A DNA stretch of 64,000 bases from a virus. Positions 6,021 to 47,425 of the stretch are shown here, piece after piece (position 1 is the stretch's first letter; every line of letters begins with the position of its first letter). The notes below the pieces were generated by a model. That model was not told the DNA's origin and did not search any database. It saw nothing but the letters and a program-made list of their open reading frames with translations. The stretch lies in IMG/VR virus record IMGVR_UViG_3300020122_000665, positions 1 through 64,000 of that record. The stretch is one strand, 5' to 3'. The translations under genes and the position numbers were made by a program.

Positions 6021-6467
6021 CTATTGGTTCCAGGGGTCCGTGTCGACCATCGCGCGCGCCATGTCGTCGAGCGCGCGACGCCAACGCTCGACATCAGTCG
6101 CCGCGCCCCGACCGAGCGACCGCCACCGGCGGTACAGGCGCCGCCAGATGGGGAGCATGAGGAAGACGCCGCACCCGACGAGCGCCGGGTAGCTGCGCGT
6201 CGCTAGGAAGTAGACGACCCACAGCGTCTCTTTGGCGAGGAGGTAGCGCGCGAGCCAGCGGTAGCAGTGGACAAGCTCCCCGTCGGTGCGCGCGCTGAAG
6301 TGAAGCTGGCGCTGCCTCTCGGCGAGCCGGTCAGCGACGCTCGCGTGGCCGAAGCTGAGCAGCACCGCCGCGGCGCCGACCCAGGCGATCGCCGTCGCGC
6401 GCGTGGCGACATTCACCGCGACGAGGATCGCGGCGACGACGGCCCACTCGAAGTGCCACGTCTTCAT
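6021..6467 (-). CDS. Polytopic membrane protein
   Basis: This 148-residue protein starts MKTWHFEWAVVAAILVAV. It has two hydrophobic segments in residues 8-42 and another pair around residues 78-108 (LWVVYFLATRSYPALVGCGV), then a basic cytoplasmic-type tail. The ATG overlaps the stop of the EAD-like gene (ATGA), so the two are probably made together. Possible roles are a holin-like protein, an exclusion protein, or an effector membrane partner of the EAD-like protein. None is shown by the sequence. Confidence 0.7.
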   Translation of the reverse strand: MKTWHFEWAVVAAILVAVNVATRATAIAWVGAAAVLLSFGHASVADRLAERQRQLHFSARTDGELVHCYRWLARYLLAKETLWVVYFLATRSYPALVGCGVFLMLPIWRRLYRRWRSLGRGAATDVERWRRALDDMARAMVDTDPWNQ

Positions 6468-6718
6468 CGCGCGGAGGCCCTCTCCACCGCCTTCGCGTTG
6501 ACGGCGTCGGCGAGCGCCGCGACCTTCCCCGCGCCGCACCGATACGCCTCCTCGATGACGTTGAACGCAGCGCCGAGCGGCGACGCGTTCCAGTTGATCT
6601 GCGCGCGCTGAAGGCCGGCGGAACCGGCGACCATCGCGATTCGATCGACCCACGAAGAACTTCGCTCGGGGTCGTCGGTGACGTGCAGCAGGAGTTCACA
6701 CAGCCGGCTTCGGTCCAT
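6464..6718 (-). CDS. Small protein resembling an effector-associated domain (EAD1-like)
   Basis: This 84-residue protein has the pattern of EAD1 death-fold-like adaptor domains: a run ending RIAMVAGSAGL, then a polar stretch with INWNASP, then a helix AFNVIEEAYRCG, then a final helix ALADAVNA. EAD domains normally sit at the N-terminus of effectors in bacterial conflict systems and pair with a matching EAD elsewhere. Here the domain stands alone and overlaps the start of a membrane protein. The start at 6718 follows GGAGGAGG. The assignment rests on remembered family consensus and is moderate. Confidence 0.5.
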   Translation of the reverse strand: MDRSRLCELLLHVTDDPERSSSWVDRIAMVAGSAGLQRAQINWNASPLGAAFNVIEEAYRCGAGKVAALADAVNAKAVERASAR

Positions 6719-7086: not shown

Positions 7087-7230
7087 TCACCCGAGGAGCG
7101 CCGACGCCACGAAGAGCGCCGCGGCGATGAGCAGCGCTACTCCGAGTCGCCGCGCCGCGCGGGCCGACGCGCGGTCGGGCTTCCCTTCGTCGATGAGCCG
7201 CAGTTTCGCCGTCGGAGAATCGTCGCTCAT
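7087..7230 (-). CDS. Small single-span membrane protein
   Basis: This 47-residue protein (MSDDSPTAKLRLIDEGK and so on) has one C-terminal membrane segment (LGVALLIAAALFVASALLG). AGGAGCG lies upstream of the ATG at 7230, and the gene follows the large-terminase stop by 12 nt. It may be a small lysis or membrane-anchoring protein. Confidence 0.65.
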   Translation of the reverse strand: MSDDSPTAKLRLIDEGKPDRASARAARRLGVALLIAAALFVASALLG

Positions 7231-8604: not shown

Positions 8605-9412
8605 CTTCGGTCTTCGCGCCCGCCGGCGCCGAGTGGTCGCCGTCGCGGTCGAAGCCCCACACCTGCACGAGCCGCTCGCGCTCCTTCGTGACGAAGTCGG
8701 GGTCCGTCGGGAGCAGGAACACGCCCGGCCCCTCGGCGATCTTCCCGCTCGCCTTGTTCTCGGCGAGGAGCGCCTCCGCCTCGAGCTTGCGGCGCTGGAG
8801 CTCTGCCTGCGCGTCCAGCGTCAGCTCGCCCTTCAGCAGCCGCAGCGTCATCATCGCCTGCGCGTGGAAGCGCGACGCGGCGTTCACCATCTGGACGGCC
8901 TGGCCCTCGACAAGCACCACCACCTCGCCGTCCTCCTCGATCTGCTTGATGCGGCTGGCCGACAGCAGCTTGTTTGCCCACACCTCCAGGGCGTAGGCCG
9001 ACGCCGCCCCCGACTCCTCGATGTCGGCTAGGAGAGCCGACTGCTTCAGCCGGCGCGCCGCCGCCGCCGCCATCTCGGGGGCGAGCTTCTCCATCTCCGG
9101 CGCGAGTTTCTCGGCGAGTTTCTCGGCGACCTTCTCAGCGACCTTGGCGGAGACCTCGGGGTCGGTTGCACCCTTCGCACTTGCCTGCAAGAGCACTGCA
9201 CCAGCCGCTGCACTGACAGGGTCGACACCGCGCTTAATGTCGCGCTTATACTTGGCTCTTGCGGCGTGCCATTTCTCGTCGGCGCAGCGGTGCTTAAGGC
9301 TGCTCAGGCTGCACCCGGGCTGCCCCCTCATGCGCTCATGCAGCTCGGGAATCGTCATCTCGCCGGTGACGAAGACGTTCCTCGGGTCGGAGTACGAAGG
9401 CGGGTCGATCAC
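8582..9412 (-). CDS. terS: Terminase small subunit-like protein
   Basis: This 276-residue protein lies directly upstream of and overlapping the large terminase. The N-terminal HTH-like region (TIPELHERM...CSLSSLKHRCADEKW) resembles DNA-binding domains of small terminases. A repeated coiled-coil (KVAEKVAEKLAEKLAPEME) follows around residues 95-125. The GTG at 9412 is chosen because GAGG lies just upstream and because the GCTGTACCTC element would otherwise be inside the gene. The C-terminal TDPDFVTKERERLVQVWGF is charged and would contact the large subunit. Confidence 0.7.
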   Translation of the reverse strand: MIDPPSYSDPRNVFVTGEMTIPELHERMRGQPGCSLSSLKHRCADEKWHAARAKYKRDIKRGVDPVSAAAGAVLLQASAKGATDPEVSAKVAEKVAEKLAEKLAPEMEKLAPEMAAAAARRLKQSALLADIEESGAASAYALEVWANKLLSASRIKQIEEDGEVVVLVEGQAVQMVNAASRFHAQAMMTLRLLKGELTLDAQAELQRRKLEAEALLAENKASGKIAEGPGVFLLPTDPDFVTKERERLVQVWGFDRDGDHSAPAGAKTEDGSGQPH

Positions 9413-19037: not shown

Positions 19038-20354
19038 CTATTCAAGCGTCGGGGGCGCCAGGTACTCGACGTCGTCGGGCAGCTCGTCCTCGTACGCGAA
19101 CTCCTCGCCGTCGTCGACGTAGCAGGCGATCAAGTCGCCGCCGTCCTCCGCCGACGCATAGCAGTATCCGCCGTCGGTGGTCTTGGTGAGCACCGGCTTG
19201 AAGTTCGCGCCGCCCCACACCGCCATGACCTCCACGTCGGGGCGGTTCCAGAGCAACCGCAGCACTTCGCGCAGCGTCAGCGCTTCGGGCAGCGCCTTGC
19301 GATTCTCGACGCCGAAGGTCTGCTTGGTGTTCAACCAGGACCAGGCATCGCCGCGCGAGAGCACCATCTCGGGGATGCCGACGTGCGCGGCCCACGTGTC
19401 GAAGGTCACCAGCACCGGCACGCCGTCGAGCGCCCCCGCCTTCTCCTGGCACGCGGCGATCGCCTTGTGGTGCGTCACGAACGGGCGCGGGTAGAGTTCG
19501 AAGACGCTCGCGACACCGTCGCCGACGTTGAACGAGTAGCGCTTCCACTGCTTCTCGTCGACAGCGCCTCGCAGCTCCTCCATCCACGTCTCGTCGTACT
19601 CCGGCCCGCCGCGCGCCGAGGCGGCCAGCGTGGGCGCCAGCTCGGCGAGCTCGAGCCCGCGCGGCCGCGCGGTCATGTTCGCCAGCTGTTTCCGCGAGAG
19701 GTGCATGATCTCGATCCACGTCCCGTCGATCGCGCCAACGCCCGCGAGCGATTCCATCCGCTCGACATAGGCGTAGGGGTCGCCGATCCACTCCTGCACC
19801 GCCGGGTTGATCCCGGCCACCGTCCTGAAGCCGGCGGCGTGCGCCATCGCGAGCATCTCGAGGCGCTCCTCGTTCCTCGGGCAGCCCCGCTCCCACTGCT
19901 TGTGCACCGCCTCGTCGAAGGTGGTGATGCTCATGTAAACGATCGAGCCGCGCGGCAGCATCGCCAGGTACTCCGCGAAGTCGGCGGGCTTCATCGTCCC
20001 TCGGGTCTGGAACACGACGGGGACGCCGAGCTTCTTCAGCAGCGGGAGCACCGCTCTCGTCGAAGCGATGTTCGGGTGGAACAGCGGGTCGACGGCATTC
20101 GAGAAGACAATTGGGTGCCGCGCGAGGAGAAGCTGGTCGGCGAAGCTCTTCGGGCTGCCGCCGGTCGAAAACACGTTCGCAATGTGCTTCAGCGTGCCGC
20201 TCGCCTTCGCATCGACGTCCCGGCCGTTGTTCGCGGCGAAGCAGTACTCGCAGCGAGTGCACGTCGAGAAGCTCAGCTCGAGCGGCGCCGGCGAGACGAA
20301 CAGCTCGCCCCCGAAGACGCGCAGTCGGTTTGATCCGTCGGCTCCATCGGACAT
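19038..20354 (-). CDS. Radical-SAM-like enzyme with a compact Cys motif
   Basis: This 438-residue protein carries STCTRCEYCFAANNG (about residues 30-44), a Cys triplet close to the radical SAM [4Fe-4S] motif but with spacing CxxCxxC, one residue shorter than the usual CxxxCxxC. The regions that follow read as a TIM-barrel-like series of strands (HPIVFSNAVDPLFHP, LGVPVVFQTRGTM, GSIVYMSITTFDE, GFRTVAGINPAV), as in spore photoproduct lyase-like and other radical SAM proteins. The C-terminal 150 residues are unique and acidic. AGGAGG precedes the ATG at 20354. It is the first gene of the leftward operon. The substrate is unknown. Confidence 0.65.
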   Translation of the reverse strand: MSDGADGSNRLRVFGGELFVSPAPLELSFSTCTRCEYCFAANNGRDVDAKASGTLKHIANVFSTGGSPKSFADQLLLARHPIVFSNAVDPLFHPNIASTRAVLPLLKKLGVPVVFQTRGTMKPADFAEYLAMLPRGSIVYMSITTFDEAVHKQWERGCPRNEERLEMLAMAHAAGFRTVAGINPAVQEWIGDPYAYVERMESLAGVGAIDGTWIEIMHLSRKQLANMTARPRGLELAELAPTLAASARGGPEYDETWMEELRGAVDEKQWKRYSFNVGDGVASVFELYPRPFVTHHKAIAACQEKAGALDGVPVLVTFDTWAAHVGIPEMVLSRGDAWSWLNTKQTFGVENRKALPEALTLREVLRLLWNRPDVEVMAVWGGANFKPVLTKTTDGGYCYASAEDGGDLIACYVDDGEEFAYEDELPDDVEYLAPPTLE

Positions 20355-21136: not shown

Positions 21137-21377
21137 TCCGTAGGCCCATCCGCGCGCGTGGGCCGCGCGCCATGCACCGCGCACGGCCCGTGTAAACAAC
21201 CGTTCACAGATGCTTCGCAAAGTGGGTTGGAAAACGCCCCACTCTCGGGCCAATCCGCCCCACTGTCCGCAATGCACCCTAATACCGCAGAGTTGCGGCG
21301 TGCGTTGCGGACGTTCTCAGTGTCAGTCAAGTGGCGTTTCGCCACACCGGTCGCACCGCGTCAATCGCTAAGTCCGT

Positions 21378-21399
21378 AACGCACGCCCTGGCGTGCGTT
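21378..21399. repeat. Near-perfect 22-bp palindrome
   Basis: AACGCACGCC and GGCGTGCGTT are exact reverse complements separated by CT. As DNA it is a strong dyad (protein site); as RNA it is a 10-bp hairpin with a loop too small for a stable closing turn, which favours a DNA role. Confidence 0.5.
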
Positions 21400-22026
21400 G
21401 GCATTCGCACTGCAATGCCCCGGTACGTCGGAACGCTGCAACGGTCGAAATTGACCCGCGCCGCGAAACGATAGTCGCGGCAAGGGCCGCGCGCGGTGCA
21501 GGGCCCACGTTGGGCACGCTTCACCCGGAAGTGATCCGCGGGGCGGACGCAACCGGCCGCAGTGGACCGAACGCAACCGGGCGCGCGCCGTCGGGCGCGC
21601 CTCAGTGGAAACGCCCTTGACCGGCGCAATGGCCGGAGAGAATGCGGGCCACGGTTGCACTCTGCCACGTCATCCGGGCGCTTGTGAGGCGCTCTCGTGC
21701 GTGGGTCCGTCACTGCGGTCGAAGGCGACAAGATCGGCTAGTCCCCTGTATGGGGTGCGCGGGGCGCCAAAGAAATGGGCGCCGACAACCGCGATGCATG
21801 GGTCCGAAACCATGCTCATCCGATCTGCCCAAACGAAAACGCGGACACGACCACTGCTCTTTCGTGACAACCGAATATCGCCGCCCCGTCGGTCGCGTCG
21901 CTGCGACGTCGGACGGGACCGGTAAATCGAACATCGATTCAACAGTGCGTCCGACGATACAAGGCCGTCGGGCGCACGATTGAGACGGTGTTTCAAACTA
22001 GGCGCGCGACGGGCCCACCGTCGCCG

Positions 22027-22131
22027 CCTCCGCGCATTCTCCCACGTCCATCCGTTTGTCGGCGCCCCCGGATCCCCCCCGTTCCGGCGCGCGCGCTGCG
22101 GATGGAGCGGACGTGGGGGAATGCGCGGAGG
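22027..22131 (+). promoter_or_regulatory. Long leader hairpin H1 that pairs with the ribosome site
   Basis: Bases 22027-22049 pair with 22109-22131 over 23 consecutive positions (22 Watson-Crick and one G-U). A further 5-bp stem (ATCCG/CGGAT) continues inside. The 3' arm ends in GGAGG, the Shine-Dalgarno of the ORF at 22140, so the ribosome site is closed in this fold. Confidence 0.65.
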
Positions 22132-22139
22132 TGACCACT

Positions 22140-22250
22140 ATGTCGACGACCCTGCCCGACGGTCGCAAGATCCACGCGATCGACCTCTCCGAGAGCTCCA
22201 CCGCGAAGGAGGTGATCGCCCGCCGCGCGGCCGCGCGCGGCACGAAGTAG
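22140..22250 (+). CDS. Small ORF with ribosome site inside hairpin H1
   Basis: This 36-residue peptide (MSTTLPDGRKIHAIDLSESS and so on, ending RRAAARGTK) has an excellent GGAGGTGACC site 4 nt before the ATG. The site is the 3' arm of a 23-bp hairpin. It resembles a small regulatory or leader peptide. The function is unknown. Confidence 0.55.
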   Translation: MSTTLPDGRKIHAIDLSESSTAKEVIARRAAARGTK

Positions 22251-22284
22251 GCACGTCGGGGCTGCGACGGCCCGCCCGTCGCCG

Positions 22285-22324
22285 CCCCCCACGAGCGCCC
22301 CCGGTGTGGGGCGTTGGTGGGAGG
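22285..22324 (+). promoter_or_regulatory. Leader hairpin H2 that pairs with the ribosome site
   Basis: Bases 22285-22301 pair with 22308-22324 (14 Watson-Crick, one G-U, two mismatches) around a 6-nt loop. The 3' end GGGAGG is the ribosome site of the ORF at 22332, which shares GGAGGTGACCTGATG with the gene at 25506. Confidence 0.6.
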
Positions 22325-22331
22325 TGACCTG

Positions 22332-22418
22332 ATGCTCACCGTCGGAATGCGCCTCTGGCGCGCGCTCTTTGCGTGGATGGACGACGACATCGACCGCGAG
22401 TCGATGCGCTTCCTCTAG
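22332..22418 (+). CDS. Very small ORF after hairpin H2
   Basis: This 28-residue peptide ([19 protein letters not shown] and so on) is amphipathic with an acidic end. It is supported mainly by the ribosome site GGAGGTGACCTG and its position between two structured leaders. It may be a leader peptide. Confidence 0.45.
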
Positions 22419-22483
22419 CGCGCAGTTCTCCGCAAATCGCTCCAGGGCGAGCGCACCGCTCGCCCCCTCCCCTGCATTTTCTA

Positions 22484-22512
22484 TTGACGGCCGCACTAGT
22501 GCGAGGCACAGT
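22484..22512 (+). promoter_or_regulatory. Operator-bearing promoter for the accessory operon
   Basis: TTGACG (22484-22489), then GCC, then the palindrome GCACTAGTGC (22493-22502), then a weak -10 CACAGT 17 nt from the -35. This has the same layout as the sites at 17598, 43765 and 44822. Confidence 0.7.
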
Positions 22513-22549
22513 GTTTCATACGCAATACAAAAAGAAGGGGAGGATCGTC

Positions 22550-23302
22550 ATGAAGAAGAAGGAACCGGCCAAGAAAAAATCGCCGAAGCGCCCGCTGGCT
22601 CCGGCGGCTGCGCCGCCGAAGCTCACCGTGCCGCTCACGTCGCGCTACGACGGCCGCGTGTTGTACGCCGCAGAAATCGACGCCGACGTCGACGAGCTGC
22701 TCCGCACGCGCGTCGCCGTCGAGAAGGCCGTCGCCGCCGGGGCCAACCTCGCCGGGGCCAACCTCGACGGGGCCAACCTCGCCGGGGCCAACCTCGACGG
22801 GGCCAACCTCGCCGGGGCCAACCTCGCCCGGGCCAACCTCGCCGGGGCCTACCTCGCCCGGGCCAACCTCGCCGGGGCCAAGTCGCTGCCCCCGCCGTCG
22901 GTGATTCTGTCGGGGCACTGGGGAGAGGTTCCGGACGATCTCTGCACGGATCTGATGCGGTGGGATGCCGCGAACCACCCGGATCCGTCGGCCTTCGACC
23001 GATGGGCGAAGGGCGGCGCGTGCCCCTACGCCGGCATCGCGTTCGCGCGGGCGGCGAACTTCCACGAGCGGCGCGACCTCTGGTCCCCTGGCGCTCCGCC
23101 GCGCCCGTATGACCTCGCCATCCGCCTGATGGCCTGGGCCGCGGAGAACGCGAAGAAGGCTGGCATGGTCACCGTCCAGGCGGGAGACGAGAAGCTGCTG
23201 CCCGACGAGGCCCCGCCGTGCACCGACTGGCTCACCAGCGACCTGTACGCCGCTGTGACCTTCCGCGGCCGCGTCTGGCTCGCCAAGACGCGGGCGAAGT
23301 AG
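22550..23302 (+). CDS. Pentapeptide-repeat protein
   Basis: This 250-residue protein has a Lys/Pro-rich N-terminus (about 1-25). Residues 64-108 are nine tandem pentapeptides of the type [10 protein letters not shown], with RANLA and GAYLA variants. A 140-residue C-terminal domain with Trp and Cys follows. Pentapeptide stretches form a right-handed beta helix; some members mimic DNA and bind gyrase, but nine repeats is short for that. GGGGAGG precedes the ATG, and an operator-bearing promoter lies just upstream, so it is the first gene of its unit. Confidence 0.75.
22739..22873 (+). repeat. Nine tandem 15-bp repeats
   Basis: The unit GGGGCCAACCTCGCC is repeated nine times with one- or two-base changes (GAC for GCC, CGG for GGG, TAC for AAC). 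Each unit encodes one pentapeptide. The near-identity at silent positions suggests recent expansion by slippage or recombination. Confidence 0.9.
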
Positions 23303-23314
23303 TCCGACCGGAGC

Positions 23315-23333
23315 GGGCGACATCGTGTCGCCC
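23315..23333 (+). terminator. Perfect 8-bp hairpin after the pentapeptide gene
   Basis: GGGCGACA and TGTCGCCC flank a TCG loop, 13 nt after the stop codon. No T-run follows; the hairpin leads straight into the H3 leader hairpin. It may terminate or stabilise the upstream mRNA. Confidence 0.4.
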
Positions 23334-23380
23334 CCTCCCCTCATGCGCCGTCTGTCGCACCGACGGCGTTTGAGGGGAGG
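23334..23380 (+). promoter_or_regulatory. Leader hairpin H3 that pairs with the ribosome site
   Basis: Bases 23334-23352 pair with 23362-23380 (17 Watson-Crick, one G-U, one mismatch) around a 9-nt loop. The 3' arm ends GGGGAGG, the ribosome site of the ATG at 23387, so it is fully within the stem. Confidence 0.65.
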
Positions 23381-23386
23381 CACGTC

Positions 23387-25345
23387 ATGTCTGCAACCAG
23401 CGAAGCCGCTTCGCCGGTTGCGCTCGATACCGAGCGCATCGGCGACGCGACCTACGATCCCGAGGACAACAAGCTGCGCATCCGCCCGTTCGCGCGCCTT
23501 CCCCGCGATCTCTACGATCGCGTGAAGGCCGCGGGCTTCTCGTGGGCTCCCAAACAGGAGCTCTTCGTGGCGCCGATGTGGACGCCGGAGCGCGCCGATC
23601 TCCTCGCGGAGTTGTGCGGCGAGATCGGCGACGAGGATACCTCGCTCGTCGACCGCGCGGAGGAGCGCGCCGATCGCTTCGGCGACTACTCCGACAAGCG
23701 GAAGGACGACGCCGAGACCGCGCGCCAGGCAATCGCCGCCATCGCGGATCACATTCCGCTCGGGCAGCCGATTCTCGTCGGACATCACAGCGAGAAGCAC
23801 GCCCGGAAGGACGCGGAGCGCATCGAGAACGGGATGCGCAAGGCCGTCAAAATGTGGGAGACCTCCCAATACTGGCAGAGGCGCGCCGCGGGCGCGCTCC
23901 GGCACGCGAAGTACAAGGAGCTGCCCGCGGTCCGCGCGCGCCGGATCAAGACCATCGAAGCCGACAAGCGCAAGCGCCAGCGGGAGACCGCCGACGCCGC
24001 GAGGCTGCTCAGGCTGTGGGGCTCGATCGAAGATCCCAAGTCGATCACCCGCAACGGCGAGCTCGTGTCGCTCAAAGAGCGGGCGATGTTCGTCGCGAAC
24101 CACGACCATATCCATCGGTCGTTTCCGCTGGCCGAGTATCCGCGGCAACCCCCGGCGTCGCAGTACGAGGGTCAGATGGGGCTCTGGTCGGCGCTCGACG
24201 GCGACGTGATCACGCCGGAGCAGGCGCGGGACATCGCGGTTCCGATCCACGAGCGCGGCAACGCGCGCCGGGCGCGCTGGATCGCCCACTACGATCTCCG
24301 CATCGCCTACGAGCGGGCGATGCTCGCCGACGCCGGCGGCACCGTCACCGACAAGAAGGGCCCCGAGAAGGGCGGCGCCTGTCGGTGTTGGGCGTCGCCG
24401 CGCGGCGGCTGGTCCTACATCCAGAAGGTCAACAGGGTGTCGGTCACCATCCTCGACAATTGGGACCGCGGCGATCCCTGTTTCAACCGCACCATCAAGT
24501 TCGAAGAAATCACTTCGATCATGACCGCGGCGGAGGTGAAGGCCGCGCGCGAGGACGGTCGGATCGCCGAGATCGACGATCGCGGATTCGCCCTGGCGGC
24601 GGAAGCTGCGCCGCGTCTGTCGGACGCGCCCGTGGCGCCCATCGACCACGCCTACGTCAACGACGGCACCGGCGACAACTGCGCGGAGCTGGTCGCCCAC
24701 CCCGCAAAGGAGTGGGTTCCGTGTGGGCATCCGAGGAGCGTCCACCGCTCGGTCACGCTCGACCCCACGCCGTTCGAAGCGATGAAAGCGTCGCTGAAAT
24801 CCGGCGTCAGAGTGGTTGCGGTCGATCAGCTGTTCGAGACGCCCGCCGACCTGGCGCGGCTCGTCGTCGAACGCGCCAACGTGCGCGGCCATTTCGTGCT
24901 CGAGCCGAGCGCCGGTCTCGGCGCGCTGGCCGGTGAGTGCTACCGCCAGGGCGCCGACGGCGTCATCTGCATCGAGAGGGCGCCCGCCTGCGCGGCGGCG
25001 CTGCGGCGCGGCCCCTTCGCGAAGGTGTGCGAGGCGGACTTTCTCCAGCTGCCCGTGCCCCCCTCCCCAGGGTGGTCGAAGTTCTACCGGATCGTGATGA
25101 ATCCGCCGTTTGCCGACGGGGCGGACGTGGCGCACGTGACGCGCGCCTACGAGTGGCTCGCGTCGGGCGGCCGGCTCGTCGCCATCATGTCCGCGTCGGT
25201 CAAGACCCGGCAGGACAAGCGCACCGCCGCCTTCCGGGCGATCGTCGACGGCTGCGGCGGCGAGATCGAAGACCTGCCGGAGGGCAGCTTCAAGGCGAGC
25301 GGCACGGGCGTCAACACGGTGCTCGTCACGCTCTATCGCGAGTAG
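23387..25345 (+). CDS. DUF3560-domain protein fused to an N6-adenine-type DNA methyltransferase
   Basis: This 652-residue protein's N-terminal domain (about 20-160, with DLYDRVKAAGFSWAPKQELF and GHHSEKHARKDAERIENGM) matches the DUF3560 pattern. Its C-terminal domain is a Rossmann methyltransferase with motif I LEPSAGLGALAG (about 503) and motif IV NPPF (about 571), the catalytic motif of adenine N6 or exocyclic-amine methylation. The order (motif I before NPPF) is that of the gamma class. DUF3560-methyltransferases occur on phages and plasmids and may protect DNA from restriction. The ribosome site is inside hairpin H3. Confidence 0.75.
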   Translation: MSATSEAASPVALDTERIGDATYDPEDNKLRIRPFARLPRDLYDRVKAAGFSWAPKQELFVAPMWTPERADLLAELCGEIGDEDTSLVDRAEERADRFGDYSDKRKDDAETARQAIAAIADHIPLGQPILVGHHSEKHARKDAERIENGMRKAVKMWETSQYWQRRAAGALRHAKYKELPAVRARRIKTIEADKRKRQRETADAARLLRLWGSIEDPKSITRNGELVSLKERAMFVANHDHIHRSFPLAEYPRQPPASQYEGQMGLWSALDGDVITPEQARDIAVPIHERGNARRARWIAHYDLRIAYERAMLADAGGTVTDKKGPEKGGACRCWASPRGGWSYIQKVNRVSVTILDNWDRGDPCFNRTIKFEEITSIMTAAEVKAAREDGRIAEIDDRGFALAAEAAPRLSDAPVAPIDHAYVNDGTGDNCAELVAHPAKEWVPCGHPRSVHRSVTLDPTPFEAMKASLKSGVRVVAVDQLFETPADLARLVVERANVRGHFVLEPSAGLGALAGECYRQGADGVICIERAPACAAALRRGPFAKVCEADFLQLPVPPSPGWSKFYRIVMNPPFADGADVAHVTRAYEWLASGGRLVAIMSASVKTRQDKRTAAFRAIVDGCGGEIEDLPEGSFKASGTGVNTVLVTLYRE

Positions 25346-25460
25346 AAGCCGCCATCCGGCGGGGCCACAAGGAGGTGCCCCCATAGCCGCGGGGCGTGTA
25401 ACGCGCCCGCCGTCGGTCGCAGCAGCCGGACCGTCGGACGCGGGAATAGGCCAACTGCAT

Positions 25461-25497
25461 GGCGCCCCGGAGGACAGACCTCGGGGGCGCCCTGGAG
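25461..25497 (+). promoter_or_regulatory. Leader hairpin H4 directly before the ribosome site
   Basis: Bases 25461-25473 pair with 25479-25491 (12 of 13) around the loop ACAGA. GGAGGTGACCTGATG starts 2 nt after the stem, so here the ribosome site abuts rather than enters the stem. About 80 nt upstream is a second structured ribosome-like site (AAGGAGGTG, 25370-25377). Confidence 0.55.
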
Positions 25498-25505
25498 GTG
25501 ACCTG

Positions 25506-31746: not shown

Positions 31747-31973
31747 TGGCGAAGCTCAGCGAAGAGGAACGATTGGCGGCCACGACGCGTCGGATCCTCC
31801 GGGATAAGCGGCGTGCCGACAAAGTCCCCGATCGATCTGCGCAGTGCGGAATCTCCTACTACAGCCAGAGCCCTCGGCAGCGCGAGGAAGGGACGTATTG
31901 GAAGGAGTGCCATCGCTGCAAGAAGCCGCTCGACTATCAACCCGTGGCGACCAGAAGGGAGTGCATCCCATGA
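31746..31973 (+). CDS. Small zinc-knuckle protein
   Basis: This 75-residue protein has a CHRCKKPL pair near the end and a charged helical start (SEEERLAATTRRILRDKRRA). The ATG overlaps the methyltransferase stop (TGATG) and the stop overlaps the next start (ATGA). The function is unknown. Confidence 0.6.
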   Translation: MAKLSEEERLAATTRRILRDKRRADKVPDRSAQCGISYYSQSPRQREEGTYWKECHRCKKPLDYQPVATRRECIP

Positions 31974-33367
31974 GGCAGGAAGCCCTATTCGGCGGCGCGC
32001 GGCTTCAGATGAGCGATTCCATCCGCTTGACGATCGAATCTCTGTTCACCTACGGGTCGACCCATCAGCATTGGGCGATCGCGTGGTCGGGAGGGAAGGA
32101 CTCGACGGTCCTGCTGACGATGGTCGTATGGATCCTGCTCTCAGCCAGGGAAGCGCGCCGCGGGGCGTTCATCATCAACGCCGAAATCACGGCTCTGTTG
32201 CGCCTGCTCCGCGCCCCGAAGTCTCTGACAGTGCTTTACGCGGACACGCGCATGGAGATCCCCCCGCTGTGGCAGGCGGCCTGCTCGATTCGCGACGAGC
32301 TGACCGACAAGGCCGCTGATCTCGCCGAGAACGGCTGCACGCTCGTCGTGCGCACTGTGATGGCGCCGATCGATCATCGATTCTTCGTCTACATGCTCGG
32401 GCGCGGCGTTCCGCCTCCGTCGACTAGATTTCGGTGGTGCACCGATAAGCTGAAGATCCAGCCGATGGCCGAGGAGCTGCGACGCCTCGTCGAGGCGGAG
32501 CGCCAGACTCCGCCGCCTCCCTCGGAAGCGATCGCCGCCGTGGCTGATGATCTTCGCCAGAAGCTCGGCGACGACTACGAGGTCATTGGTCCGAGGAAGC
32601 TATCCGATAAGATCCTCCTGCTCACCGGGCTCCGCGTCGGTGAGAGCGCTGCGCGCGATGACCGGATCGCGATCGCGTGCGGCCGCGACGGCGGTGAGTG
32701 CGGCCAGGGCTGGTATCAAGAGTCGCTCGACTCGTCATTCTGCGACACGCTGGCGCCCATTCTTCACATGCGCGTCTGCCACGTGTGGGAGTGGCTGAAG
32801 CATTGGGCCGAGCGGATCGAGTTCGGAGACTGGTCGACCGCGCTTCTCGCGGATGCGTACGGCGGCGACGAGGCGGAGGAGAAAAACGCGCGCACCGGCT
32901 GCGTCGACTGCAATCTCGTCGAGGAGGATCGGGCGCTCAAATACAGCAGTCGCCTTGATGGATGGACGCATCTTCAGCTCCTGGTCGGAGCCCTCAAAGC
33001 GATCTACGCGGAGATGAAGAAGCCGCAACACCGGCTACGACAGCCCGGAGGCGAGCGCCGGAAGGATGGAAAGCTGGCGCTCAACCAGCAGCGACTCGGC
33101 CCACTGCTGCTCACGTCGAGGATCCAGTTCCTCGACCAGATCCTCGAAGTGCAGGCGCGCGTGAACGCCGAGGCCGATCGCATCGGAGCCCCGCGCCTCA
33201 ACATCCTCAACGCAGAGGAGGAAGCGCGAATCCGCGAACTGGTGGCGGCGAACACCTGGCCCGACGGATGGAATGGCGACGAGCCGGAGGGCGATGTCAT
33301 GCTCGACAGAATGTTCGCGGACGGGACCATCCAGCCTTTGCTCCGTGGCTTCGGAGAAGGCACATGA
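31970..33367 (+). CDS. PAPS reductase/DndC-like PP-loop enzyme
   Basis: This 465-residue protein shows the PP-loop SGGKDSTVLL (about 39-48). FRWCTDKLKIQPM (about 155) and LTGLRVGESAARDDR (about 220) follow, as in phage PAPS-reductase-family and DndC-like proteins. GCVDCNLV (about 310) supplies a Cys pair. PP-loop enzymes adenylate substrates; DndC does so for DNA phosphorothioation. DndB, D and E-like partners are not seen here, so a complete Dnd system is not supported. The neighbouring methyltransferase and Mom-like genes make a role in DNA modification plausible. Confidence 0.75.
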   Translation: MRQEALFGGARLQMSDSIRLTIESLFTYGSTHQHWAIAWSGGKDSTVLLTMVVWILLSAREARRGAFIINAEITALLRLLRAPKSLTVLYADTRMEIPPLWQAACSIRDELTDKAADLAENGCTLVVRTVMAPIDHRFFVYMLGRGVPPPSTRFRWCTDKLKIQPMAEELRRLVEAERQTPPPPSEAIAAVADDLRQKLGDDYEVIGPRKLSDKILLLTGLRVGESAARDDRIAIACGRDGGECGQGWYQESLDSSFCDTLAPILHMRVCHVWEWLKHWAERIEFGDWSTALLADAYGGDEAEEKNARTGCVDCNLVEEDRALKYSSRLDGWTHLQLLVGALKAIYAEMKKPQHRLRQPGGERRKDGKLALNQQRLGPLLLTSRIQFLDQILEVQARVNAEADRIGAPRLNILNAEEEARIRELVAANTWPDGWNGDEPEGDVMLDRMFADGTIQPLLRGFGEGT

Positions 33368-44821: not shown

Positions 44822-44850
44822 TTGACTGCTGCACTAGTACGAGTTAGCTT
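44822..44850 (+). promoter_or_regulatory. Operator-bearing promoter of the recombination/integration operon
   Basis: TTGACT (44822-44827), then GCT, then GCACTAGTAC (44831-44840, one base off), then TAGCTT 17 nt from the -35. Unlike the others, it has a normal leader with GGAGGAAGCA before the ATG at 44892. Confidence 0.7.
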
Positions 44851-46109: not shown

Positions 46110-47425
46110 TGTGCGGCCGGCGACAGGGCGCTCCTCTCCCGCTGCTGCCCACGGCGAGCGCGCTCCCGCGAGCGATGCTGTGTCCACCGTCGGTGTTTCT
46201 GCCCCGCGTCGACGACGTGGTCGACAGCGAGTGGGCGGCCTACGGCAACGGCGCGCACGCGTTCATGGTGCGCGCCGAGGAGGTCGGCCGCGAAGCGGCG
46301 CTCGAGGAGATTCCTGCGGACGCGTCGTGGCGCAACCTCTGCGAGCAGATCCCGCTCGAGAAGCTGCCAAAGGGCGGCCGATACGAGGTGTCTCTCAGGT
46401 GGAACCACCGCACCGGGAAGGCGCGCATCCTCGGCTACGACCTCAAGCCGCACGCGGGAGGCACCTACCCGCCGAGGGAGGATGCCGCGGACTACGACGG
46501 GACGGCGGACCTCGTCGCGACGGTCATGCTGCCCGACGGCACGAAGGCGGTGCTGGTAATCGACTTCAAGAGCGGCTACCGGCGCATCGGCCTGGCGGTC
46601 GATCACAAGCAGGTCAGGTTCCTGGCGCTCGCCGCGGCGCGCGCCCTCGGCGTCGACCACGCGATCGTCGCGCTGGTCTATCTGCGCGACGACGGGTCGC
46701 TGCCGTGGAACGAGGCGCAGCTCGACTTCATTTCGCTCCTGCAGGTCGAGGAGGAGATGGTCGCGCTCGCCAACGAGATCGAGCGGTCGTGGCTGCGCTA
46801 CGAGGCGGGCCTCGGCGTCGACGTCAAGAAAGGGAAGTGCACCTACTGCCCCGCCTACGACTCGTGCCCGGCGAACGTGAAGCTCGCGGGAGCGATCGTC
46901 GCCGAGACGCAGGCGATCGTGAAGCTCGTCGCCGAGAACGCGACGGTCTTCGTCGACGAGGGAAAGGGACTCGTCGAGCGGATGTCGGACGAGAGCGTGT
47001 TCTCCAACGAGGCGGCGGGAGTCGCGCTCTCGCGCGTGCTCCTGGTCGAAGAGCTGCTCAAGCGTGTCAAGCCGGTCCTGAAGGATCGCGCGCGCCGCGC
47101 CCCGCTGCCGCATCCCGACGGCGAGCACGAGTGGCGCGAGGTCGAGGTGCCGGATACCGCGCTCGATGCGGCCGTCGTGCAGAAGGTCGTCACGGAGAAG
47201 CACGGCGAGAAGGCCGGAGCGGAGGTGGTCCAGCTGACGACGTCGCAGAAGGCAATCGAGAACGTGCTGCGACCGATCGCCAAGAAGGGAAAGCTCGCGG
47301 CCATGAAGCGCGACGTGCTCTCCGCCGTCGAGGTGGCAGGCGGCCTCACCAAGACGATCGGGACCGAGGTGAAGCTCGTACCGATCGCCGCGACGCAAAA
47401 AGCCCTCAAGCGGGCCGCGAAGTAG
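46109..47425 (+). CDS. PD-(D/E)XK exonuclease with Fe-S-type Cys cluster (Cas4/RecB-like)
   Basis: This 438-residue protein has nuclease-core residues in YDGTADLVATV (about 129, catalytic Asp) and VLVIDFKSGYRR (about 148-159, D-x-K), followed by QVRFLALAAARAL. Four cysteines (AMLCPP near the N-terminus and CTYCPAYDSCPA near 245) match the C...CxxC...C cluster of Cas4/AddB-type nucleases. It probably makes 3' overhangs for recombination with the preceding protein. The C-terminal 130 residues are helical and lack the motif. Confidence 0.75.
   Translation: MCGRRQGAPLPLLPTASALPRAMLCPPSVFLPRVDDVVDSEWAAYGNGAHAFMVRAEEVGREAALEEIPADASWRNLCEQIPLEKLPKGGRYEVSLRWNHRTGKARILGYDLKPHAGGTYPPREDAADYDGTADLVATVMLPDGTKAVLVIDFKSGYRRIGLAVDHKQVRFLALAAARALGVDHAIVALVYLRDDGSLPWNEAQLDFISLLQVEEEMVALANEIERSWLRYEAGLGVDVKKGKCTYCPAYDSCPANVKLAGAIVAETQAIVKLVAENATVFVDEGKGLVERMSDESVFSNEAAGVALSRVLLVEELLKRVKPVLKDRARRAPLPHPDGEHEWREVEVPDTALDAAVVQKVVTEKHGEKAGAEVVQLTTSQKAIENVLRPIAKKGKLAAMKRDVLSAVEVAGGLTKTIGTEVKLVPIAATQKALKRAAK

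Follow-up and report, generated by a model that had tools for sequence, protein, structure and literature searches.

Four consecutive cistrons at the front of a rightward accessory operon in this phage are each preceded by the same two-part leader. In units U1 to U4 a stop codon is followed by a short GC hairpin (h1), a long hairpin (H2), and AUG. h1 ends exactly where H2 begins (a tandem with a gap of 0), and a strong Shine-Dalgarno sequence (SD) is found in the 3' arm of H2. An earlier note on this DNA, which missed h1 and the leader before 22550, had described leader hairpins of one family heading the operon. The observation is confirmed and is larger than first described. That it represents a real leader module at the RNA level is highly likely, and translational control is likely. 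In the reading that we prefer (probability roughly 0.45), the module would shield the operon's front cistrons, each separately, from read-through translation and would be opened by a 5' end inside H2. The first interpretation is partly supported, and a translational switch or an RNA-processing system is plausible.

The DNA analyzed (the window) is positions 1-64000 of a phage record of 85,475 bases, and its GC content is 68.5%. The contig carries genes for a terminase, a DnaB helicase, and a methyltransferase. A leftward gene block stops at 20354 and a rightward block begins from 20426. The rightward genes are interrupted by about 1 kb of non-coding DNA and resume at 22140 with these ORFs:

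22140..22250, + strand, 36-aa ORF without family match
22332..22418, + strand, 28-aa ORF without family match
22550..23302, + strand, pentapeptide-repeat protein of 250 aa (PF00805, E 1.2e-12)
23387..25345, + strand, DUF3560 and methyltransferase-like protein of 652 aa
25506..25796, + strand, 96-aa ORF

No Rfam 15 family matches the leaders at gathering score; the sole matches are two tRNAs elsewhere on the contig. These two tRNA genes are on the minus strand at 18912-19069 of L003 (about 82.9-83.1 kb of the contig), outside the window. A 465-aa protein encoded at 31970-33367 of the window has a partial, below cut-off match to DndC-like proteins of the phosphorothioation sulfurtransferase family. 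The palindrome GTCCGCAAtGCAC / GTGCGTTGCGGAC is repeated several times, in both orientations, at 21265-21405 of the non-coding control region, and these copies could be operators or more RNA hairpins.

The hairpin units are as follows:

21929..21993, + strand, U0, a 25-bp hairpin (by folding) inside the 1-kb non-coding leader
22006..22024, + strand, h1 hairpin of U1, GCGACGGgcccaCCGTCGC (by folding)
22025..22133, + strand, H2 of U1, arms 22025-22049 / 22109-22133 (25 positions), 59-nt loop, SD GGAGG at 22127-22131 within the 3' arm
22264..22282, + strand, h1 hairpin of U2, GCGACGGcccgcCCGTCGC
22283..22326, + strand, H2 of U2, arms 22283-22301 / 22308-22326 (17 pairs in 19 positions), SD at 22320-22324 within the 3' arm
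22445..22465, + strand, h1 hairpin of U3, GGGCGAGCgcaccGCTCGCCC (by folding)
22466..22543, + strand, H2 of U3, arms CCTCCCCTGCATTTTCTATTG 22466-22486 / CAATACAAAAAGAAGGGGAGG 22523-22543, 36-nt loop, SD at 22539-22543 within the 3' arm (leader of 22550)
23315..23333, + strand, h1 hairpin of U4, GGGCGACatcgtGTCGCCC (by folding)
23334..23380, + strand, H2 of U4, arms 23334-23355 / 23359-23380 (20 pairs in 22 positions), SD at 23376-23380 within the 3' arm
25448..25504, + strand, U5 hairpin, arms 25448-25473 / 25479-25504, core of 13 positions, SD at 25494-25498, partly paired and immediately below the core

The hairpins that the earlier note had placed before 22140, 22332, 23387, and 25506 all fold there. 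Its account of GGAGG, which is part of the 3' arm in the first three and follows 2 nt past the core before 25506, also stands. U0 has a GC hairpin ahead of it at about 21884-21918, and neither SD nor start codon is found downstream. In U2, the 5' arm of H2 is contested by a longer form of h1. The 26-nt stretch with the h1 of U1 has 85% identity to the U2 copy. GGAGGTGACC is common to U1, U2, and U5, and we take it to extend the complementarity to the 3' end of 16S rRNA. U3 and U4 have AGGGGAGG-NN-CGTCATG in common. A motif found in both U0 and U3, ACRGTGTTTCAWAC, was dropped because its occurrence was estimated to be at chance level for a region of this size.

Chance does not account for the long stems. 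The 110 bases upstream of each of 100 predicted gene starts were folded and scored against dinucleotide shuffles. Four consecutive starts have the lowest z-scores: 22140 (-7.2), 22550 (-5.1), 23387 (-5.0), and 22332 (-4.6); 25506 is weaker (z -2.3). A fold scan along one strand of all 85 kb places its two most extreme windows in the leaders of 22140 and 23387, and U0 has a z-score of -6.2 in the window 21891-22000. A second test held the SD fixed and used 1000 dinucleotide shuffles per leader. The folding energy was matched or beaten by none of the shuffles for U1, U3, and U4, by 10 for U2, and by 13 for U5, so that U2 and U5 are singly only about 1% events. Opening the SD is unusually costly in U1 and U3 alone (1/1000 each); in U2, U4, and U5 the cost is at the level of GC-rich shuffles (174-269/1000). 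Therefore, SD burial in each of these last three, taken alone, could be chance.

The earlier note had also claimed that the arms differ while the pairing is kept, and the comparison of units agrees with this. With leaders anchored on both flanks and compared in register, U1 and U2 have 9 pairs that are the same, 1 changed on one side, 6 changed on both sides, and 2 broken. The corresponding numbers for U3 and U4 are 8, 0, 7, and 3; the changes are mostly two-sided in both comparisons. Among 40,320 permutations of the arms of eight modules anchored on h1 and SD, the one that joins each arm to its own partner pairs best, a result that is partly circular because the arms were found by pairing. 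It does show that the arms are copy-specific and not a shared repeat. No close relatives of the phage were found in IMG/VR with the terminase, phrog_210, and 28782 proteins as queries.

The module recurs in another phage. About 4 Mb of fetched DNA was screened for an h1 joined directly to an H2 with an SD-start behind it; U1-U4, with gap 0, and L144 rank among the strongest matches. A wider screen gave 14 candidates compared with 5 in reversed sequence, and copies from G000 and G001 are among the best. L144 is part of G001, a phage contig of 54,124 bases with 62% GC. It has two clear modules, with h1 GGGCGACC..GGTCGCCC:

G001 (L144) module 1: GGGCGACCttgattgaggGGTCGCCC, H2 arms GCAAGCTACCCACGAGA / TCTCGTGGGTAGCTTGC, GGAGG, ATG at 7199
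G001 (L144) module 2: GGGCGACCCgccgaaGGGTCGCCC, H2 arms GTCCCAACCGACCTGCGAGC / GCTCGCGGGTCGATTGGGAC, GGAGG, ATG at 8993

In one of these modules the SD is just outside the stem. A third hairpin leader is found in G001 after its DUF3560 gene. The DUF3560 proteins of the two phages have 44% identity; there are three weak matches besides, and no terminase match was found between them. The G001 phage is distantly related and has mainly the gene for DUF3560-methyltransferase in common with this one. One module copy also comes from a third contig, G004; it is not an unbiased find because this contig was fetched with an SD-palindrome pattern. In h1, the spacer from GGGCGA to TCGCCC varies (7, 9, 12, or 14 nt), and the loops of H2 range from 3 to about 130 nt. 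Variation of both kinds favors an RNA structure over a DNA operator of fixed spacing.

A DNA pattern derived from the U3 and U4 leaders gave unrelated matches only. A second pattern, designed to pick up palindromes with an extended SD, matched many pairs of divergent genes and, in other DNA, a few single SD hairpins. G002 (L154), picked in an SD-hairpin screen, was rejected when a fuller reading gave no such module before a good start. In L296, the same SD hairpin (CGCTCCTTTAGTGGGATAAT...AAAGGAGGTGA) is found twice, at 6098-6161 and 6639-6702, before small ORFs of 88 and 93 aa.

The leaders of homologues of the 23387 gene are mostly without such a hairpin (mean z of -0.9 for 117 non-redundant leaders). 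The earlier note had named homologues that keep the ribosome site and lose the pairing as the finding that would count against its proposal. Most homologues of this gene are indeed of that kind. The feature therefore goes with the phage lineage and not with the gene, and to that extent the objection holds. One of them, before the DUF3560-gene homologue in an Acidobacteriaceae genome (L066, 2820-2929), has a comparable long SD hairpin of its own (z -5.5).

In the proposed mechanism, RNA reading through from upstream would expose the 5' arm first. Because this arm is transcribed before the SD, H2 would close over the SD first, and the cistron would be transcribed yet silent on long messages. Translation would occur only from RNA whose 5' end falls inside H2. 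The stems look too stable for spontaneous opening. An RNA thermometer was discarded on theoretical grounds, since the predicted hairpin energies of about -31 to -81 kcal/mol are too low for melting in a useful range. A promoter within the hairpin could provide the 5' end, and U3 has a candidate:

22484..22512, + strand, promoter-like TTGACG-17-CACAGT (8/12), inside the U3 hairpin

Its predicted start is near 22518, between the arms, and the transcript would omit the 5' arm. It is the only + strand promoter match at threshold in 21.1-25.5 kb; two further TTGAC-17 matches, at 44822 and 63594, are in intergenic stretches. No promoter-like sequence was found in the hairpins of U1, U2, U4, U5, or G001. 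Since it is seen in none but U3, cutting would remain for the other units. H2 may be opened by a double-strand-specific cut, most likely by host RNase III, after which h1 would stay behind at the 3' end of the upstream piece and protect it. A host enzyme would be needed because no RNase III gene was found in the present phage or in G001. Folding in vivo, the silencing of translation, and opening by internal initiation or cutting are all steps that we infer.

It is possible, though doubtful, that the hairpins serve mainly mRNA processing and stability: RNase III-type sites, as in the T7 early region, would divide the message of the operon into pieces the size of a cistron, each capped at its 3' end by h1 and beginning anew close to the SD, and SD burial would be a by-product. 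H2 stems of 17-25 bp that directly adjoin h1 are what such sites would look like, and an SD just outside the stem (U5 and one G001 module) or hairpins without any start (U0) would be expected more readily. RNase III is known to cut T7, T3, and lambda RNAs and can leave stabilizing hairpins (PMC5371410). However, processing alone does not need the SD inside the stem, where it is found in U1-U4, and neither phage has a gene for the enzyme. A model of read-through silencing alone, in which every hairpin would contain its own promoter (the arrangement of T4 gene e and I-TevI) and no processing would take place, is unlikely. The U3 candidate, with its predicted start between the arms, speaks for it, and accessory and mobile genes of T-even phages use this device (PMC2988022). 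A clean example is also found in an unrelated contig (L377, 700-830), where a TnpB-like ORF has its SD in a perfect 17-bp hairpin and a 12/12 consensus promoter with its -10 inside that hairpin; by its sequence this is clearly a clean read-through lock of the same logic. In U2, U4, and U5, however, the loops are only 3-6 nt, and no promoter-like match is found in the U1 loop or the G001 modules, although an unrecognized phage or host sigma factor could hide them.

Palindromes acting at the DNA level, as operators, cruciforms, or recombination or origin-related sites of a control region, would account for the dense ones that also exist in the 1-kb non-coding region before U1. This is very improbable, given that the H2 arms have no common sequence, that loops (3 to about 130 nt) and h1 spacers vary, and that every unit stands in the same order and sense, with a stop codon before it and an SD-start after it. 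Integron attC sites were set aside by eye. Still less probable are ordinary GC-rich intergenic hairpins of the terminator type that overlap the SD by chance. Strong stems are easy at 68.5% GC, and U2 and U5 by themselves are events of about 1%, but the lowest four z-scores of 100 belong to consecutive starts and the zero-gap tandem is found again in a second phage. There is no U-tract after h1 or H2 either. Intrinsic terminators as such were rejected, as a scan gave no + strand site in 20-30 kb and no U-runs exist past h1 or H2.

Single SD-burying hairpins are known in phages and are usually described gene by gene. If the front cistrons are insulated from read-through translation as proposed, this arrangement of two hairpins before each of a series of consecutive cistrons, common to two phages of distant relationship, would offer a simple, modular means of silencing accessory genes on read-through RNA. 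A wider reading, which we offer tentatively and consider unlikely, is that h1-H2 is a transferable leader, a standard part between cistrons that cuts or isolates a polycistronic message into separately controlled units. If it is true, translation within the operon is set by RNA hairpins together with a host double-strand nuclease or internal starts, and not by separate operons.

The likeness to the start-associated sequences (SAS/ESAS) of cluster K mycobacteriophages that the earlier note had drawn is limited to inverted repeats just upstream of several gene starts. The 17-bp inverted repeats of ESAS share a consensus without RNA covariation; departures in the two repeats do not support RNA pairing, and DNA-binding sites are favored by the authors (PMC3203893). 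Here, in contrast, every copy has its own arm sequences, and the arms pair best within the copy. The 13-bp SAS, GGGATAGGAGCCC, is absent before these start codons, and its single match with 2 mismatches, at 46128, is at chance level.

In IS200, an additional upstream terminator hairpin exists ahead of the SD stem-loop of tnpA. The leaders described here are similar in having an SD-sequestering stem-loop and a separate hairpin in front of it, but there is no transposase, and they are iterated before unrelated phage genes. Sequestration of the SD by the tnpA leader stem-loop is described in PMC12594629.

RNase III opens the ribosome sites of E. coli adhE and lambda cIII, and some other RNase III hairpins contain promoters (PMC5371410). 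Like these sites and those of T7 early RNA, the present leaders have the SD occluded in a long (predicted) double-stranded stem and belong to a phage polycistronic operon. They differ in the tandem h1-H2 layout and in the lack of a phage-coded RNase III, and their cutting is putative. Another relative is seg43 of Aeromonas phage 25, in which the base of a very stable hairpin directly abuts the RBS (PMC2988022), as the hairpin base adjoins the RBS in U5 and the G001 modules. seg43 is a single gene, and no h1 is mentioned for it.

Also among the closest parallels are the T4-type RBS-sequestering leader hairpins: those of T4 e, soc, 49, and I-TevI (PMC3014915), and those of T-even homing endonuclease genes, of segB, and of Aeh1 mobE (PMC2988022). 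Similar to these, U1-U4 have a long leader hairpin with the SD in its predicted 3' arm, the genes are accessory or mobile ones read through from upstream, and U3 has a candidate promoter (8/12) inside the hairpin. Unlike in the T4-type leaders, most units here are without a visible internal promoter, and consecutive cistrons are involved, each with an abutting first hairpin.
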